Positions 27,801-37,901 of a stretch of DNA of 64,000 nt are shown in pieces (the first letter of the stretch is position 1; each line of letters starts with the position of its first letter). Where the stretch lies: NCBI RefSeq assembly GCF_900104055.1, contig NZ_FNJQ01000011.1, positions 1 through 64,000 of the forward strand. The letters are read 5' to 3'. Source of the DNA: Pseudoselenomonas ruminantium. Lineage in GTDB: Bacteria > Bacillota > Negativicutes > Selenomonadales > Selenomonadaceae. The notes beneath the pieces were generated by a model. The model had not been told where the DNA came from. It saw nothing but the letters and a program-made list of their open reading frames with translations, and ran no database searches. A program made the position numbers and the translations under genes.

Positions 27801-30101
27801 TTATTCCACGAGCATTTGAATCCTTTCCCAATTCTCTTCCTTCGCTGCGGCCTGTAACTCCAGCAGCACAGTGGCCTTCGCTTCCGGCAGGGTATAGCCT
27901 TCCAGGGTTTCCAGCATATAGTCCAGGCTGTCTTTGTCCTTTGCTTCGGCAATCTCACGCAGGGCTTCGATGGTTTCCAGCAGTTCCTCATCGCTGATGG
28001 GCGGCTTGTCTTCCTTTTCCGCCACAGGAACAGCCTTTTCACTCTTGACCGGCACCCAGTTCAGCACCCGCTGGTTGATCGTAAAGGAACATTCCGTCCC
28101 CTTGCCCAGTTCCGATTTCATCTGCAATTCACTGCCAAAGAGTTTCAGCAGCCTTTGGGTGACATTGAGCCCCAGTCCTGTTTCATTGAGCATATTGAGC
28201 GGCCTGTCCTCATCCAGGGAAAGCATTTTCCGGACAGACGCCAAATCATCTTCGGTAATGCCTACACCAGTATCCTTGACCTTCAGCTGGAGCTTCACAT
28301 CTGCAGGACCAATCTTCACCATCGTGAATGCCAGCTGGATCGTGCCTGCCACGGTATATTTCACGGAATTGCTCAGGATATTCAGGAGTATCTGCCGCAG
28401 GCGCAATTCATCGCCATAGAGTACACTGGGCATATCCGCAGGCATGTCCACCACGAAATCGAGTCCCTTGGCCTCGATTTCCTCCATCAGCTCATTTTTC
28501 AGATGGCGGATAAGGTCAGTGACCTTGTATTCCCCCTCATTGATGGCAAAATCCCCAGCTTCCATCTGCAAATAGTCAAAGATACGATGGATGATGCCAT
28601 AGACCTTTTCGCCGGCGATATAGCATTCTTTGGCATATCCTTGAATCTTTTCCTCCGTAGCCTCCTTGCGGATTTTCCGCTCCAGCGCAATCACATCGCG
28701 CAGTGGCTGAGCAATATCCCGGCTGACACTGGCCAGAAATTTATATTTGGCAATGCTGTTTTCCTCATTCTTTCTGGCAAACTCTGCCAGTTCCCGGTTG
28801 CTCTCGGCCAGTTCCCGGGTGATAGCATCCAGGAAGGCCGCCATGCGCGTGGAGAGCAGCATCTTGGTGTTCTCCGGTTCCTCTGCCGGCTCGTCGAAGA
28901 TATTGAGCGCGGATTTGTTGCGCCCTTCCCGGAAGCCTACAGCCACAAGCGCGCAATTGAGCAGTCCGCCATGCCCCTGATAGCAGTATATTTCACCGGT
29001 ACCGCTGGAGCAGAACAGCTGATTGGCAATGCGCTGATAATAGCGGATCTCTTCGCTTTCCTTCATCTGCAAGAACAGGCTGCGGGTGCCGCAGGCACTG
29101 ATATACATACCTTCCGGGGCAAACTGGCTCATCTTCTCGCTGGCCAGCTCTGTTTCATGCAGAAAGTCCTCACGCTCTCCATAGGTCAGACGTACGCGCT
29201 CGCCTATTTTCACGTCCCCATTGAAGAAAATACGCCCCTCTTCATCAAATCCCGGCGGCACACGGGCGATCAGGCATTCATCCCGATCAATGGTCAGCGG
29301 GAACTCGGCGATATTATAGACGAAATTCTCGTCAGGTTTCACCTTCAGATAGTGGCGATAGATATCCACGGCTGGCATATTATCCAACTTGCTGATCACG
29401 TTAGGCCCCATGGTTTCCGTAATGACCATTTCCTTGCCAATCGGCTTCCATCCCAGCACATAATCGGCCCGCACACTGAGATTTTCCCCGCAGAACACGG
29501 CCACAACCACGCCCTGCTCCACGATCTCACTGCCCAGCAGGAAATACTTCTGTTCACCGCGATGCAGCAGAGCACTGCCGGCAATAGATACTTCCTCGCC
29601 AAGATGTTTGACCGAGCCCGTCATGCTGCCAAAGACCACCACATTTTCATTGCCGCAGACAAAAGCATCCAAAAAACGGCCAAAGTCCGCATCCATCGTG
29701 CCCAGCACCAAAGCCGCCCGCACATCCTGCATGGCTGCAACCTTCTGCCCCAGCTCCAGGCCTGACTTCCCATAATCATCCAGCATGCCATTTTTCTCCA
29801 TCAACCGGATCTTGGCATTCTGGAAGAAGCTGCAGTTGATCCGCATATAGCCGCCAGGATCGCCGAAAAACAGGGTTTCCGTCATGCCCACGACCACAGC
29901 CCGGGGCAGGAAGGAACGAATCCTTTCCCGCACTCTCACCGCTTCATCCATGGGCATCTTATAGAACGACAGCTGCATGAAAATCGCATTGGCCTGCTTG
30001 CTGGCCGGCCTCATCGAAAGAGTCTGCAGCACCTTGTCCAATTTATCCCAGAATCCCTGATCGCCCGCACTCCAATTGAGCGTGTAATCATACTGAATCA
30101 T
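27801..30101 (-). CDS. FIST-domain sensor with degenerate histidine kinase core
   Basis: A 766-residue soluble protein. Residues about 30-220 match a FIST N domain (VVVGMTETLFFGDPGG, VVVFGSMTGSV) and about 230-370 a FIST C domain (VLGWKPIGKEMVITE); FIST domains are thought to sense small ligands such as amino acids. A kinase core follows: dimerisation helices with FLASVSRDIAQPL at 455-467, N box LRQILLNILSNSVKYT about 567-582, G1 DTGVGI about 610, G2 GLGLNVTQRL about 643. The usual SHE of the H box reads SRD, so the phosphoacceptor histidine is R461. A 70-residue helical tail ends the protein. ATP binding looks intact, but autophosphorylation at the usual site is not possible. No response regulator is adjacent. 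Confidence 0.88.
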   Translation of the reverse strand: MIQYDYTLNWSAGDQGFWDKLDKVLQTLSMRPASKQANAIFMQLSFYKMPMDEAVRVRERIRSFLPRAVVVGMTETLFFGDPGGYMRINCSFFQNAKIRLMEKNGMLDDYGKSGLELGQKVAAMQDVRAALVLGTMDADFGRFLDAFVCGNENVVVFGSMTGSVKHLGEEVSIAGSALLHRGEQKYFLLGSEIVEQGVVVAVFCGENLSVRADYVLGWKPIGKEMVITETMGPNVISKLDNMPAVDIYRHYLKVKPDENFVYNIAEFPLTIDRDECLIARVPPGFDEEGRIFFNGDVKIGERVRLTYGEREDFLHETELASEKMSQFAPEGMYISACGTRSLFLQMKESEEIRYYQRIANQLFCSSGTGEIYCYQGHGGLLNCALVAVGFREGRNKSALNIFDEPAEEPENTKMLLSTRMAAFLDAITRELAESNRELAEFARKNEENSIAKYKFLASVSRDIAQPLRDVIALERKIRKEATEEKIQGYAKECYIAGEKVYGIIHRIFDYLQMEAGDFAINEGEYKVTDLIRHLKNELMEEIEAKGLDFVVDMPADMPSVLYGDELRLRQILLNILSNSVKYTVAGTIQLAFTMVKIGPADVKLQLKVKDTGVGITEDDLASVRKMLSLDEDRPLNMLNETGLGLNVTQRLLKLFGSELQMKSELGKGTECSFTINQRVLNWVPVKSEKAVPVAEKEDKPPISDEELLETIEALREIAEAKDKDSLDYMLETLEGYTLPEAKATVLLELQAAAKEENWERIQMLVE

Positions 30102-31304: not shown

Positions 31305-31991
31305 TTATTTTGCCATGGGCTGATGCTTGATGGCCAGCTTATCCAAAAGCTTGTCCATCGCACCTGTCAGTCCGTCTTCCACAGCATTGGTGAGCAGTCC
31401 CGTGGGAGTCGTTTCGTTCTTGAAATCAACCCCGCCAAAAATACTTGCCTGCGGCAGGCCACGCAGTATGCTCAGGACCGAACCGCTATTGCTTTCCGAT
31501 GAGCCATCCGCTGTGACCATACTGACCACGCTTCCGGTCTTCACATCGATCAGGTGCAGGGATATCTTGGCTACCGCTTTCGTGGTTTCCCTATCAAAGA
31601 TTGGATTGTTTTCATCGCTGTAATTGATGCCCATACCTACGATATTGCCACAAATCACATAATCAGCGTGCTGCAGTTTGCCAATCTTCAACGCGTCACT
31701 GTCCGCTATACTGCCAGATAATGCCAGCCCCTGCTCCTGCAGGATCTTCCCCCTGTCAGCAACCTCTGTGATATTCAGGCTGGTACTACGCGACAGATAA
31801 AACGCCGCGCTCTGGGTGGCCAGATCCGTCAGATTCTCCCTGATTTCACGATTGCTGCCATCTTCGCCCATATACCCGATTCCCACGATGCTGACAGATG
31901 CATCCGCGGGAATCCGTGGAAAAGCCAGCGTAACCTGTGTCGCCAGCATAAGCATACAGCAGGCCAGCAGCAAGATACGATACGATCTCAT
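31305..31991 (-). CDS. CsgG-like secreted protein (third in operon)
   Basis: A 228-residue protein with a signal peptide (hydrophobic residues 7-22, probable cut near VTLA). The mature part resembles the CsgG family: VSIVGIGYMG, KIGKLQHADYVICGNIVGM (the family ADYVIxG block), VAKISLHLIDVKTGSVVSMV. CsgG proper is an outer-membrane lipoprotein pore for curli subunits. No convincing lipobox is seen here, so a periplasmic or outer-membrane-associated partner is as likely as a pore. It is the last gene of a five-gene operon, followed by a terminator that contains the asparaginase promoter. Confidence 0.7.
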   Translation of the reverse strand: MRSYRILLLACCMLMLATQVTLAFPRIPADASVSIVGIGYMGEDGSNREIRENLTDLATQSAAFYLSRSTSLNITEVADRGKILQEQGLALSGSIADSDALKIGKLQHADYVICGNIVGMGINYSDENNPIFDRETTKAVAKISLHLIDVKTGSVVSMVTADGSSESNSGSVLSILRGLPQASIFGGVDFKNETTPTGLLTNAVEDGLTGAMDKLLDKLAIKHQPMAK

Positions 31992-32003
31992 CCTGACACT
32001 CCC

Positions 32004-32861
32004 TTACAAGAACAGTTTGTGTTCATCCAGATCCTTAACCATGCCCTTCACGACTTCCTGTGCTGCCTTGTCCAGGGCCTTCACATAATCCGTTTCATTC
32101 AAAGCTGCACTGTTTTTGGAATAGAGAGGCACATTGAGATTCTTTGTCTTCTTCACGCGTACCTGGCTGCGCTGATTCCAGACCACCTCGCCGTCAGCCG
32201 CACGAATCACGCGCATATCGACGATGACACCAAAGCCTGTATCCACCTTATTGGCATTTCGCAGCAAACCACCGCCAATGCTGCCAAACAAGCCAAGTCC
32301 CGGTATATTCTGCAATACGGTAGCCGCAAGCGACGTGCCACTCTTGAAGTCCGTATCTTCCCAGGTACCCTTGCCCAGATTTACGATCGTACCATGAATC
32401 AGATATTCCGCGTTGCTTTCCTTGCCAATACGGGAAGTCACAGCTGAAGCTACGATCTGTCCCTTGTCCGCCGTAGACAGCGTATTGGCCATCTCATCCT
32501 TGAAGGCCTGTCCTTCAAAGACCGCACTGAGGTCACCGGACTCAATGGCCCGTTTTGCATCCACGAATTCCTGACGACGCTCATTGTAGAGCATTTCTTC
32601 CATATCCTTGCCAATTGGCTTCTGCGTCTGCAGCTTGAAACGGCCGCTGTCCATCAATTTTTCCATGACCAGTTCTGCGAAGCGTTCATCCGATTCCAGT
32701 CCCTTGTAACGGGTATCATCGGAGAATTTCATGACCACGCAGTTGGGGCTTTGGCTTGCCGTTGCAGCAGGCTCAGCGGCCGCAGCTTCCGTATCCGTGC
32801 CGGGAAATATCAGGGCAGCCCCCAAAGCCATGACTGCCGCACATTTTAACATGTTCTTCAT
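32004..32861 (-). CDS. CsgG-like secreted protein (second in operon)
   Basis: A 285-residue protein with a signal peptide (residues 1-27, AAVMALGAALIFPG then TEAAAAE). The mature protein begins with an Ala/Thr-rich linker and has CsgG-family blocks: CVVMKFSDDTRYKGL, NAEYLIHGTIVNLGKG and VIVDMRVIRAADGEVVWNQR. A glycine-rich stretch (PGLGLFGSIGGGLL) near the middle might insert in a membrane. The ATG at 32861 has GAGAGGA 8 bases upstream. It lies 12 bases before the next CsgG-like gene and 18 bases after the upstream gene. Confidence 0.7.
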   Translation of the reverse strand: MKNMLKCAAVMALGAALIFPGTDTEAAAAEPAATASQSPNCVVMKFSDDTRYKGLESDERFAELVMEKLMDSGRFKLQTQKPIGKDMEEMLYNERRQEFVDAKRAIESGDLSAVFEGQAFKDEMANTLSTADKGQIVASAVTSRIGKESNAEYLIHGTIVNLGKGTWEDTDFKSGTSLAATVLQNIPGLGLFGSIGGGLLRNANKVDTGFGVIVDMRVIRAADGEVVWNQRSQVRVKKTKNLNVPLYSKNSAALNETDYVKALDKAAQEVVKGMVKDLDEHKLFL

Positions 32862-32879
32862 CCTAAGTCCTCTCATTCC

Positions 32880-33671
32880 TTACTTCTGCAGACTCTTAGC
32901 CTTCAAACCAGCAGGCATGCTCAGTTTGCTGCTGTCCGGCGTACCGGAAAAATCCATGATTTTCAGGATGCACTTGCGTCCCACCAGCTGACCTGCCCCA
33001 TTGCGGCTGTAAGAAGCAGACGCAATGCGCACGAGCTTCGTGCCATCAAAGTAATAGCGCACAGCTTCCAAACCAGCCGCACTGCTGGCCTTATAATCCT
33101 CATAGCTCTGGCCATTCGGCAGATTGCCGGCCCCCACATAGTTATAAACCGGCTGGCCTGCAGGAATACGGTCTTTAGGCAGCATCACGCCCAAAAGCCG
33201 GGAAACATCACTGGTGCCGAAGGACTCGCCATAGAGCAGTTCCTTTTCCGGCTGGAACTCGCTGGCCACCACTGTGGCTTTGCCATCGAAAGATTTCCAG
33301 GTTTCCTTGCCCTTCTTGACTTCACGCTTGAAGTCATAGACATCGCTGCCCTTTTTCAGCTGGCATTTGCTGTAATCGCCATAATTGGTCTCCACATAAC
33401 GGTCTTCTCCCTGCATGACCACCATGCCCTTGTAGCCCTTATGGGTATAGAGGGGCGGAGTAGACATCCGGCCAAAGGTGGCGGAAAGGTTGCTGCTGTC
33501 CCGATTGTGTTCCCGCTCAGCCGGGGTAATATTCTCATAGCTGATGGTACAATTCCGCTGAGCCAGCATGTTGCGGTAGGCATCCAGCTTACCGGCAGAT
33601 GCCATATTAAAAGGCAGGCACAGGGTAAATGCTCCCAGTACAGCCGCTGCCATCCATTTATTTCTGCGCAT
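32880..33671 (-). CDS. Secreted protein of unknown function (paralogue B)
   Basis: A 263-residue protein with a clear signal peptide (hydrophobic core AAAVLGAFTLCLPF, cut near ASA-GK). The mature N-terminus AYRNMLAQRNCTISYENIT parallels EYQNMLQQDFVLSYGYEGK of the upstream gene product, and the two are similar in length and probably paralogous. Two cysteines (NCTISYE and SKCQLKK) could form a disulfide. No known domain is recognised. Its 5' end overlaps the upstream gene by 14 bases, so both are translated from one mRNA with the CsgG-like proteins. Confidence 0.7.
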   Translation of the reverse strand: MRRNKWMAAAVLGAFTLCLPFNMASAGKLDAYRNMLAQRNCTISYENITPAEREHNRDSSNLSATFGRMSTPPLYTHKGYKGMVVMQGEDRYVETNYGDYSKCQLKKGSDVYDFKREVKKGKETWKSFDGKATVVASEFQPEKELLYGESFGTSDVSRLLGVMLPKDRIPAGQPVYNYVGAGNLPNGQSYEDYKASSAAGLEAVRYYFDGTKLVRIASASYSRNGAGQLVGRKCILKIMDFSGTPDSSKLSMPAGLKAKSLQK

Positions 33672-34437
33672 TCAATGCACCTCCCATAGTACCTTCCTCT
33701 ACCGGATTATCCAGCAGATCGTTGATATCGCCCAATTCCGCCTTGTACACCTTGACATCATTCAGCTTGGAGATGGCGCCCTCGTCCACGCCAGCCTTGA
33801 ACTCCATGATATCCAGAGTAGACAGGAGCTGCTGTTTGCCCTTGTAGAGCAGATACTTCTGGGCCTTCACCAGCTTGCCGTCCTTGTAAAGCAGGTTGTA
33901 AGCCAACTGGCCGGATACGCCGCCAGCCTGATTGCGAATATCACAGATGTACTGGTCGCAATCGTATTCATCGCTGCCCACCTGACGCTTGGAACTACCG
34001 CTGAACGCCGGCGCTCCCAGGCTCTGGGGATGGCTGGTCCACTTATCCTGCCAAGCGAGAACCGCTAATTCCTCCGGCAGTGCCAGACGATCTTTCTTCT
34101 CCGTCCACTTCTCATCCGGAGAAAGCTTATCGCTGCCAAGCATATTTAGTGGCAGGACCTTAGCCTTCGTAACTTTTTCGATATAAAACTGATAGATTTT
34201 ATCGTTGGTTCCCAGCACTTTGGGATACCATAAATTTTCCTGCAGGATTGCCGTCATCCGCTTACCTGCATCACCGGTAATACGGACCTTTTCCGTTTTT
34301 CCTTCATATCCATATGACAGGACAAAATCCTGCTGCAGCATGTTCTGATATTCAGCGGCTGCAGGCTGCTGAGCTGAAACTGTTCCCATCATCAGTCCAC
34401 AGGCAAAAACACCTGCAACTATTTTCTTCCAATTCAT
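33658..34437 (-). CDS. Secreted protein of unknown function (paralogue A)
   Basis: A 259-residue protein with a signal peptide (VAGVFACGLMMGTVSA then QQPAAAEYQ). The mature part is rich in beta-type and charged stretches (YGYEGKTEKVRIT, DEYDCDQYICDIRNQAGGVS) and has one close cysteine pair. I do not recognise a family. It resembles its downstream neighbour at the mature N-terminus and in overall layout. The start at 34437 follows GGAGAAAACG; an in-frame ATG 12 codons earlier would add a charged extension before the signal peptide. It lies 32 bases after the first CsgG-like gene. Confidence 0.7.
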   Translation of the reverse strand: MNWKKIVAGVFACGLMMGTVSAQQPAAAEYQNMLQQDFVLSYGYEGKTEKVRITGDAGKRMTAILQENLWYPKVLGTNDKIYQFYIEKVTKAKVLPLNMLGSDKLSPDEKWTEKKDRLALPEELAVLAWQDKWTSHPQSLGAPAFSGSSKRQVGSDEYDCDQYICDIRNQAGGVSGQLAYNLLYKDGKLVKAQKYLLYKGKQQLLSTLDIMEFKAGVDEGAISKLNDVKVYKAELGDINDLLDNPVEEGTMGGALNAQK

Positions 34438-34469
34438 CGTTTTCTCCAATCTATCCGAAATACGGCTTC

Positions 34470-35141
34470 TCACTTGCTCTTGCCATCCAGCTGGGACAAG
34501 ATCCCCTCCTTGCCATGAATGGCTTCCTTGACAGCCTTCTCTATCGCATTCTCACACTGCTCATCGCTGACATTGACGGAACCCAGCATGAAAATGTTTC
34601 CCTTTGCAGCTACAGCTCCGGCAGAGCTGTCTGACTTCCCCTTGCCTCGTCCATAAAGAACGATTCGACCGGTTTCCACATCGACAACCCTGATGAGTAC
34701 AGTTGCGGCAACCTTGTTCTTATGAAGGCCAGCAGCGCTATCGATTCTTCCGCTGTGCATAATGGCGCCGCTGCTCTTGGCTGTCAGACTGGCCACACTG
34801 CCCAGCACCAGATAATCTGCGCCGGAAAGCCTGCCTATTTCTGCTGCCGTAGCACGATCCACCATGCCCGTCATATTCAGGCTGTGTTCATCCATAAGCT
34901 TTTGCAAAGCTTCCCGCTCAATGCATTCAAACCGCATCGTTCGGTTCAGTTCAAAAGCCAGATTATCCGTGGCACTACCTGCATAATCGCCAAAATCATG
35001 CCAGTTTTCTGCCGCCTTGTTCTGCAATGGCAAAACCGCGACTCGAGGATAATCATCAATTCCCTTGACTTTTGCCAGCGCCATACTCGGTATCATCACC
35101 AGGACCAGCACCAGCAAGAGCAGCCATTTCCCTCTGTTCAA
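34470..35141 (-). CDS. CsgG-like secreted protein (first in operon)
   Basis: A 223-residue protein with a signal peptide (LLLLVLVLVMIPSMALA, cut before KVKG). The mature part follows the CsgG pattern closely: RVAVLPLQNKA, ELNRTMRFECIEREALQKLM, IGRLSGADYLVLGSVASL and VLIRVVDVETGRIVLYGRGK. It lacks the lipobox of E. coli CsgG. It is the first gene of the operon, about 110 bases after a good promoter that carries an 11-bp-spaced repeat array upstream. Function as a secretion pore, a pore partner or an envelope sensor cannot be told apart. Confidence 0.75.
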   Translation of the reverse strand: MNRGKWLLLLVLVLVMIPSMALAKVKGIDDYPRVAVLPLQNKAAENWHDFGDYAGSATDNLAFELNRTMRFECIEREALQKLMDEHSLNMTGMVDRATAAEIGRLSGADYLVLGSVASLTAKSSGAIMHSGRIDSAAGLHKNKVAATVLIRVVDVETGRIVLYGRGKGKSDSSAGAVAAKGNIFMLGSVNVSDEQCENAIEKAVKEAIHGKEGILSQLDGKSK

Positions 35142-35253
35142 AAGCCTTTTCCTCCTTCAATCTGTCCATACCTTACACGATCAGGCACCTTTTTGCAGAG
35201 AATCAGCGGTGCCGGGAAAAATGCCTGTTATCCGCTGCACTTTTCCAAGGACT

Positions 35254-35282
35254 ATTTTCCCTCTCATTCGATATCTTGTCAA
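35254..35282 (-). promoter_or_regulatory. Promoter of the CsgG-like operon
   Basis: On the - strand a perfect TTGACA (35282-35277), a 17-base spacer and GAAAAT (35259-35254). The weak -10 fits a promoter that needs an activator. Confidence 0.65.
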
Positions 35283-35298
35283 TGATTTTTTCATATTT

Positions 35299-35353
35299 CT
35301 TTAATATTTTCCTAAGGTATCCTTAATGTGTTCTTAAGATAGCCTTAAGAACA
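35299..35353. repeat. Five direct 11-bp operator-like repeats
   Basis: TTAA-type cores start at 35301, 35312, 35323, 35334 and 35345, exactly 11 bases apart (TTAA, CTAA, TTAA, TTAA, TTAA). The 11-mers from 35310 on share YCTTAAG-like cores. The array ends 16 bases upstream of the -35 of the CsgG-like operon promoter. An 11-bp direct repeat is the usual footprint of OmpR/PhoB-type response regulators. Confidence 0.6.
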
Positions 35354-35381
35354 AAAGAGAGGCCTGATTACCAGGCCTCTC
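35353..35381 (-). terminator. Terminator of the FlgT-like gene
   Basis: On the - strand GAGAGGCCTG...CAGGCCTCTC (35381-35357) is followed by TTTTGTTC. It lies 11 bases after the stop. Confidence 0.8.
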
Positions 35382-35391
35382 CCAGACGGCA

Positions 35392-36408
35392 TCAATGCAG
35401 GGACAGCTTCAATTCACTGTTACTGATTGCCAATATATAGATATTTAGTCCTACTTCTTTTAACATTCTCGCCAACACATGCGGCTTCTGCACGGATTCC
35501 ACATCGATGATGGCAGTTCCCCCATCCATGCTCCGCAGGATAACCTTCTGCACACCGGCCATATTACCCATCTTCTGCGTCAGTTCCTCCACCTTTTCCA
35601 GGCTGTCGGCCTTTACGGTCAACGTTATGCCCTGATGGATCTTCATGGCCGTTTTCTTGAACTTAGCTTCCAATTCTTTGGCCGCCTGAGCTGCGGCCTC
35701 CTTGCGAGCACGATTCCCTGCCAGTGCGGCACTGTTGTCAATCCCCCGGCCTGTGGTCTGGAAAGTGGCTACGATACTGCCCGTAGCATAATCCACCACA
35801 CGTACGGTAAGTTCTGCGGCTGCGGATTGCAGCGGCGTCGTATTATAACCACCCTGCCCATCCGGAACCTTTATCGCATAGGCATGAACCTCACTGGTGC
35901 CCAGTACCCGGTAATCCACCGGACGACTGTCAGACACCACATGATTGAAGCCCACTACCAGCAACTGTTCGTTCAGCGCCTGTTCCGTCAACAGATCATG
36001 GCTGCTGCCATTTCCCAGCTCTTTATCCAGGATCTCCACATGAATGCGGGGATCATTGAGCAGGGCCACCGTATTCAGGCGGCTGAGCAGCTTGGAATCC
36101 GCACTGGTATCCACATCTACCTGCGCCCGGATATGCCATACCTGCCCTTCCTGCCCGCTGGACATAACTTCCATACCAGTTACAAAGCCCTGCGCCTGCG
36201 CATAGATCTCATCGAGCTGCGTAACATAGTTCTCCACCAGCGTCTTCGAGGCAATATAAGTTCCTGCCACCTGTTCCACAGCCTGCCGGGCTGCGTCCCG
36301 ACGAGCTGCATTCTCATCCACACCATATCCATCCACTGTCACCGTCTGTGCTGCTGCCGTCTGCACCAGCATCAGCCATACAGCCAAAAGGACAAGCAAT
36401 CTTTTCAT
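35392..36408 (-). CDS. FlgT-like secreted protein
   Basis: A 338-residue protein with a signal peptide (LLVLLAVWLMLVQTAAA, cut before QTV). The first mature domain matches the FlgT N-terminal type: GYGVDENAARRDAARQAVEQ, TQLDEIYAQAQGFVTGMEVM and VWHIRAQVDVDT. A second domain resembles the FlgT/CsgG-type fold (NDPRIHVEILDKELGNG, AAAELTVRVVDYATGSIVA), and a C-terminal BON-like or ferredoxin-like part follows (KIHQGITLTVKADSLEKV). FlgT in Vibrio builds a ring around the flagellar base. Here the neighbours are CsgG-like, so an envelope role is likely. The ATG at 36408 follows GAGGAAT; a longer frame to 36522 has no site. Confidence 0.65.
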   Translation of the reverse strand: MKRLLVLLAVWLMLVQTAAAQTVTVDGYGVDENAARRDAARQAVEQVAGTYIASKTLVENYVTQLDEIYAQAQGFVTGMEVMSSGQEGQVWHIRAQVDVDTSADSKLLSRLNTVALLNDPRIHVEILDKELGNGSSHDLLTEQALNEQLLVVGFNHVVSDSRPVDYRVLGTSEVHAYAIKVPDGQGGYNTTPLQSAAAELTVRVVDYATGSIVATFQTTGRGIDNSAALAGNRARKEAAAQAAKELEAKFKKTAMKIHQGITLTVKADSLEKVEELTQKMGNMAGVQKVILRSMDGGTAIIDVESVQKPHVLARMLKEVGLNIYILAISNSELKLSLH

Positions 36409-37104: not shown

Positions 37105-37764
37105 TCATTCATCCATTTTAGCGGTTTGTTTCACGCCCATCTCTTCATACAACTTGTTGAAGCGATTGGTGATCTCATCATGGGTATCCTTGGTGATCTG
37201 AGGCATGTCATCCTGTCCCATCTCATCCTTCCAAACGATACCAGCCTGTTTGAACCCTTCTTCTACTGCGGCCTGCATCTGCTGCAGTTTTTCCGGATCG
37301 CCGCCGGCAATGGCCGTTGCCATGTCCATGATGCGGGATGCAACGCTATCCACAGAATAAGCGCCGCCTTCGCCAATGGCCTCCGCTGCTTCTTCCGGCG
37401 TGGTCCCTACTGGCGGCAAGGCAAATTTGTCCGTGCCGAACAGGATACCGTCAAAGTTCAGCTTGCCGATACCTTCATCAAGATACCCTTGCAGCTTGGC
37501 ATTCTGCTCGGTAAGCGTCTTGATCATCAACTGATAGCTCTTGTTAATGCCATCCTGCAATGCATCGACCTGCTCACTGGTGAGTTTGTCCAATGCCGTG
37601 GAAGCTTTCTTGGCTTCAGCAGAGATATCCACCGAAAAAGCCTCGTTAGTAGTAGTTGTGGTTTCCTTCGTCGCTTCATTCGTGGTAGTGGTGGTGCTCT
37701 TCGTATAGCTGGCCTTCACCGCTGCAGTCTGTTGCGACAAAGAAGAAATCGTATTGACATCCAT
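37105..37764 (-). CDS. Hypothetical protein with Thr-rich N-terminus
   Basis: A 219-residue soluble protein. Residues about 20-42 hold two copies of a Thr/Glu-rich stretch (STTTTTNEATKE and TTTTTNEAF). The rest is mostly helical (AEAKKASTALDKLTSEQ, DGINKSYQLMIKTLTEQNAK) and ends acidic (EEMGVKQTAKMDE). There is no signal peptide, membrane segment or cysteine. The family is not recognised. The ATG at 37764 lies 9 bases after AGGAGG; the one at 37770 lies only 3 bases after it. The gene is monocistronic, with a GCGGCCGC hairpin terminator. Confidence 0.7.
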   Translation of the reverse strand: MDVNTISSLSQQTAAVKASYTKSTTTTTNEATKETTTTTNEAFSVDISAEAKKASTALDKLTSEQVDALQDGINKSYQLMIKTLTEQNAKLQGYLDEGIGKLNFDGILFGTDKFALPPVGTTPEEAAEAIGEGGAYSVDSVASRIMDMATAIAGGDPEKLQQMQAAVEEGFKQAGIVWKDEMGQDDMPQITKDTHDEITNRFNKLYEEMGVKQTAKMDE

Positions 37765-37901
37765 GTTCATCTTCCTCCTTTATCCATGAACCAAAAATGC
37801 AGATAAGGTTCCTATTTACATTATCGGTGAAAACCACGGAAAAAGCAAGCATTATTTAAAGATTTGCGCGACTTTTTTCATTTGTTCAACCATATTCTTT
37901 T

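Follow-up and report, generated by a model that had tools for sequence, protein, structure and literature searches.

What do six adjacent genes for secreted proteins contribute to the cell envelope of Pseudoselenomonas ruminantium, a member of the Negativicutes, a class in which delivery to the outer membrane without LolA, LolB or the usual outer-membrane lipoproteins is, according to excerpts of three papers (PMC5007114, PMC10665443, PMC5491611), a question still open in print? The genes, here called T, B, C, D, E and F, lie on the minus strand of a 64,000-nucleotide stretch (positions 1 to 64,000 of contig NZ_FNJQ01000011.1, assembly GCF_900104055.1; the window), where they run in that order from 36408 to 31305. 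All six open reading frames (ORFs) were confirmed at the coordinates of Table 1, and, as an initial annotation of the window had claimed, all six products appear by eye to begin with a signal peptide, which is of the Sec type with an A-X-A-like site. We tentatively propose that the operon encodes a carrier-and-ring module of the periplasm, dedicated to construction of the outer membrane or the cell surface, a reading with a real chance of being right, if less than an even one. It is backed by the predicted LolA/RseB fold of D, a natural fusion of C with D, and the strict linkage of C, D and E. The six-protein set is apparently undescribed, as searches of titles and the starts of abstracts, with subscription papers and preprints outside their reach, gave among the papers listed no description of such an operon, nothing on CsgG in Selenomonas, and nothing that joins the CsgG family to LolA-like proteins.

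The genes stay together outside this strain, so that the result named by the initial annotation as a refutation of its proposal was not obtained. A single-sequence search found D in 44 of 189 genomes of the order, including 2 of 22 in its own genus, and a profile search found it in 52 of 380 genomes of the class, 45 from its own family and 7 from a second one. The distribution of the cassette is therefore patchy and covers two Negativicutes families, and the diderm Firmicutes at large, to which the system had first been assigned, are too broad a scope. Carriers named among 18 loci include Selenomonas ruminantium, S. bovis, an oral Selenomonas and rumen Selenomonadaceae. No copy of D was found in a plasmid collection by tblastn, and none of 170 pattern matches in IMG/VR encodes a relative. 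Neighbourhoods were mapped in 48 other D-positive genomes and the window, giving 59 loci in all; 49 of the 52 D-positive genomes are thus covered and G074, G086 and G112 are not, the match in G112 being a 42-residue fragment, and in G207 the D match is weak (E 4.2e-5) and its locus (L099) has a diverged C-like gene. Across these loci, which are not independent counts because several come from one genome or from close relatives, 62 of 69 D genes have C directly before them and a CsgG-type gene (E) directly after them with the same orientation; of the remaining seven, two run into a contig end and one is a C-D fusion. An unbroken B-C-D-E-F run is present in 30 of the 59 loci, with T next in line in 19, a number that excludes the window since the ORF picker placed an antisense ORF between its B and T. 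The best match in another locus occupied the same operon position for 148 of the 150 proteins in these 30 runs, and hence the cassette maintains B, E and F as three separate paralogues alongside C and D. As C-D-E also occurs alone (L056, L066, L072 and L074) and as two tandem sets (L059-L062 and L065), the unit of the cassette is C-D-E. The genes that flank the cassette in the window share no cluster with the first 40 loci.

C and D form a family that the initial annotation could not place. Neither protein matched a Pfam or NCBIfam family, and BLASTP detected no similarity between them; it was profile-profile comparison (probability 97.6, E 2.8e-12) that confirmed the paralogous pair proposed earlier. 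The 23 relatives of D and 17 of C gave, in Pfam at E values up to 1, single-member matches to unrelated families and none to a LolA-type family, with PF03548 (the LolA family) at 0 of 23 and 0 of 17, and in PHROGs both C and D fall only in families of unknown function. The structure model of D (mean pLDDT 80.3, pTM 0.74) matched the LolA-type structure 4mxt with a VIA Z of 11.8 (175 residues, 3.7 A), followed by LolA of P. gingivalis (Z 10.9), RseB (Z 10.1) and LprF (7.9), with LolA-type chains as a whole at Z 9-12, which argues for a LolA/RseB fold in D that C, through its homology to D, would share. Because of this predicted fold, the likely mechanism shifts from a secretion pore to periplasmic carriers and ring proteins. 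One relative encodes a natural in-frame C-D fusion of 520 amino acids (L102:1050-2612) with a single N-terminal signal peptide, its D part being matched from profile position 27 and having no signal peptide of its own, and this argues that C and D act together. D thus resembles the LolA/RseB/LppX superfamily of periplasmic lipid and lipoprotein handlers in its predicted fold and as a secreted, soluble protein, whereas the absence of a match to PF03548 or another LolA-type Pfam family, the pairing of paralogues, the company of CsgG-fold genes and the patchy occurrence within the lineage set C and D apart. A separate C-type variant was seen at L055:13230-14624, where a C-type protein continues after its first ~180 residues as a T2-type protein (see below) with an internal signal-peptide-like stretch, a chimera that suggests recombination at that locus.

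The LolA fold of the D model also raises the possibility of a Lol-like lipoprotein route, in which C and D would replace the absent LolA as carriers of acylated lipoproteins to the outer membrane, where E, B or F would be the LolB-like acceptor. No PF03548 gene was found in any of the 21 genomes searched (this genome and 20 relatives), and the excerpts of the three papers cited above report that Negativicutes lack Lol components, including LolA, LolB and LolCDE, and leave their replacement open. Such a route would not be general, however, given the patchy distribution of D in the class and the genus, and an excerpt of one of these papers states that acyl modification was not seen on outer-membrane proteins of Veillonella. 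We therefore regard a replacement of LolA in this strict sense as unlikely. The RseB matches suggest, in turn, an envelope-stress sensor of the RseB/MucB kind, in which C and D would detect lipid or protein that is mislocalised. RseB scores among the closest structures to the D model, also taking third place in Foldseek, and the repeat array and promoter-like site ahead of B (Table 1) suggest separate control. D aligns with residues 26-211 of the 284-residue RseB chain, however, so that the second RseB domain is unmatched, and the five window neighbours scanned include no anti-sigma or sigma gene (no genome-wide search for an anti-sigma partner was made). With its three CsgG-fold partners also left unexplained, a sensor of this kind is highly unlikely.

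The three proteins encoded with C and D, namely B, E and F, may form ring-like assemblies. B and F exceed the 20.8-bit cut-off of the CsgG family PF03783 and E, at 17.9 bits, does not, so that two of the three CsgG-type proteins initially proposed stand on profile matches and the third on its modelled fold. The model of E (mean pLDDT 72.9, pTM 0.65) matched FlgT (Z 14.3), PelC (13.7), CsgG (12.3) and TolB (10.3), which is consistent with a FlgT/PelC/CsgG fold. T, initially described as FlgT-like, has a FlgT_N trace of 19.8 bits, below the 28.8-bit cut-off; its LPP20 and CsgG traces are also weak, and its profile matches a chain named 'Lipoprotein, putative' at E 7.7e-5. A further secreted protein of ~300 amino acids, T2, is related to the N-terminal domain of T and weakly to LPP20, and it recurs downstream in many relatives (L043:7429-8397, L044:7003-7908 and similar spots 2-3 kb beyond the cassette), but none was seen at that of the window. 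An apparent relation between D and T2 came from an iterated D profile that had drawn in T2 and was discarded, as with a clean profile the separate T2 proteins matched neither D nor C.

A curli-like secretion pore, with B, E or F as a CsgG-type channel that exports a subunit, is the device that the initial annotation had in mind. The CsgG domain of B and F, which they have in common with both CsgG and LpoB, agrees with it, and in L043 an Asn-rich repeat protein and other secreted proteins adjoin the cassette. The B profile matches solved CsgG chains (E 7e-6), but the alignment ends at residue 172 of the 262-residue chain, beyond which we take the second membrane hairpin of CsgG to be located. 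This region varies greatly among 18 B-type proteins, being as short as about ten residues in some and a long acidic repeat in others, and the region of the first hairpin is helical and of low confidence in the E model. A simple lipobox rule flagged none of the six proteins and 10 of 376 related ORFs. Curlin repeats, CsgE and CsgF gave no matches in the whole genome, with an E. coli control positive each time, and the lack of curli subunits and chaperones noted at the outset for the cluster thus extends to the genome. These features and the presence of three paralogues per operon separate B, E and F from CsgG and LpoB, and a pore would leave C and D unexplained. Hence we consider the curli-like pore quite unlikely. 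What remains of the initial proposal of an outer-membrane secretion or envelope-stress device is a module of the envelope, conserved and dedicated, that contains CsgG-type and FlgT-like proteins but no curli partners, the pore itself being poorly supported.

The fold matches of E lead to two further explanations. PelC, the outer-membrane ring of the Pel system, represents its second-best fold group, and the protein might accordingly belong to a ring that guides an exported polysaccharide. E shares the predicted fold with PelC but not a flagged lipobox, Pel genes were not noticed nearby (PelB was not searched for), no glycan synthesis gene was noticed in the cassettes read, and C and D would again be unexplained; the probability of a PelC-like ring is very low. 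FlgT is the best fold match of E and, together with the FlgT_N and LPP20 traces of T, recalls the FlgT and LPP20-FlgP flagellar ring proteins, and the P-ring gene FlgI is present in 41 of the 52 D-positive genomes, as would be anticipated if the cassette supplied a component of the flagellar H- or T-ring. The cassette is also found in genomes without FlgI, which is absent from all seven carriers of D in the second family, including three with a completeness of 98-100%, as well as from four less complete genomes (68-91%) of the first, and T is kept with the cassette in at least four of those seven (L093, L094, L095 and L098). A general flagellar role is thus largely refuted, and a ring component of this type is barely credible.

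The proposed carrier-and-ring module accommodates both halves of the operon. C and D, as a LolA-fold pair, would shield a hydrophobic cargo during its transit of the periplasm, the cargo being a lipid, a lipidated protein or the amphipathic segments of an outer-membrane protein, and would pass it outward to E, acting with B and F. The latter three, with their CsgG/PelC/FlgT fold, would assemble into rings on the periplasmic side of the outer membrane, T would be an accessory related to FlgT and LPP20, and neighbouring surface proteins may be the clients. The module may therefore be the route still missing for delivery to the outer membrane in a group believed to have no LolA; an operon that joins a LolA fold to a CsgG fold is a concrete, knock-out-ready candidate for how Negativicutes achieve this delivery, and it might also assist surface proteins in oral and rumen selenomonads. 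A more specific version, which we put forward as doubtful, is that Negativicutes have in C and D their first recognised LolA-fold carriers and that these constitute, with three unanchored CsgG/PelC-fold acceptors, a separate outer-membrane route that loads lipidated or autotransporter-type surface proteins independently of Lol and curli.

The idea that surface proteins are clients comes from the neighbourhoods. Genes for autotransporter-type barrels separate E from F in L054 and E from T in L065, immediately precede C in L056 and immediately follow F in L096 (PF03797, 108 bits). Nine barrel ends were aligned (alignment A7), of which only that of L043 passes PF03797 alone (36.3 bits), the others being placed by their alignment with it at 19-43% identity, and the full-length autotransporter-like proteins of L043, L065 and L054 had no Pfam match at E 0.01. 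Within the order, barrels are present in 43 of 45 D-positive versus 71 of 144 D-negative genomes (Fisher p 2e-9), and 27 of the 74 matches listed in D-positive genomes lie <15 kb from D versus 1.4 expected, both figures being biased because cassette neighbours supplied the sequences for the profile and no correction for relatedness was applied. The independent Pfam profile PF03797, applied to 44 of the 52 genomes (G074, G086, G112, G116, G118, G135, G207 and G229 were left out), listed 150 matches, of which 10 lie near D versus 2.2 expected. Other proteins seen beside cassettes are a secreted repeat protein very rich in Asn, Asp and Ser right after that of L043 (L043:5309-6391) and, in L057, a secreted ricin-lectin/dockerin protein (L057:4594-6288) and a large VWA/C-type-lectin/RTX-like protein (L057:157-3630).

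Several observations weigh against the carrier-and-ring module. Foldseek with the D model ranks an unrelated PNGase chain first (E 2.8e-4) and an ependymin-like protein second, ahead of RseB (7.5e-4), with low TM-scores (0.36), and the D profile matches no PDB sequence, so that the link to LolA rests on the structure model, as the fold of E likewise comes from prediction. A fold by itself shows no function, and ligand, complex and localisation rest on inference. As regards the clients, no gene of the autotransporter cluster was seen next to the cassette either in the window or in L035-L041, and the 71 D-negative genomes with barrels indicate that barrels do not need the module.

Table 1. Coordinates of the six genes and of the sites between T and B in the window
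Feature	Position	Strand	Description
T	35392..36408	-	Secreted 338-aa protein; weak FlgT_N, LPP20 and CsgG traces
Terminator-like hairpin	35355..35383	-	13 pairs, directly after T; consensus scan
Array of 11-bp direct repeats (MTTAAG-type)	35296..35350	-	Four copies detected by score (35307-35350) and one more by eye (35296-35306)
Promoter-like site	35254..35282	-	TTGACA-17-GAAAAT ahead of B; consensus scan
B	34470..35141	-	Secreted, CsgG domain (PF03783, 90.1 bits); TTG start behind GGAGG
C	33658..34437	-	Secreted; paralogue of D; LolA fold presumed
D	32880..33671	-	Secreted; LolA/RseB fold predicted by model
E	32004..32861 (or 32876)	-	Secreted; FlgT/PelC/CsgG fold predicted by model; constant partner of C and D
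F	31305..31991	-	Secreted, CsgG domain (PF03783, 44.2 bits)

The organization of the cluster suggests two transcription units. B to F are closely packed, with a 14-base overlap of C and D and 3 bases between D and the longest reading of E, and the 250 bases between T and B contain the hairpin, the repeat array and the promoter-like site of Table 1, because of which B-F is probably a transcription unit of its own, as T probably is in the window strain. Neither terminator-like sites (4 observed versus 5.1 expected from shuffles) nor promoter-like sites (8 versus 5.1) are in excess in the region, and the case for the hairpin after T is its position and stem length only. The repeat array stands out with a z of 8.5 against shuffles of its own region, and all six matches to its pattern in the window, versus 0.19 expected, are at the array. 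Across the genome the three-copy pattern (<=2 mismatches) gave six rows, five of them the array and one elsewhere, but a backwards control pattern gave four, and hence the uniqueness of the array in the genome is not strong. The array, which lies ahead of the promoter-like site of B, may be a regulator site, possibly of the response-regulator kind. The same TTAAG-type form was not found upstream of other cassettes; five other upstream regions have repeat scores above z 3 but with different sequences.

The genes flanking the cluster are ordinary, with a YgbA_NO-family protein and a PucR-type regulator upstream and an asparaginase and a FIST/histidine-kinase protein downstream. A 221-aa protein without a Pfam match is encoded near the cluster at 37105-37770, and the downstream gene at 27801-30101 encodes a fusion of FIST sensor domains with an ATPase domain of the histidine-kinase type.

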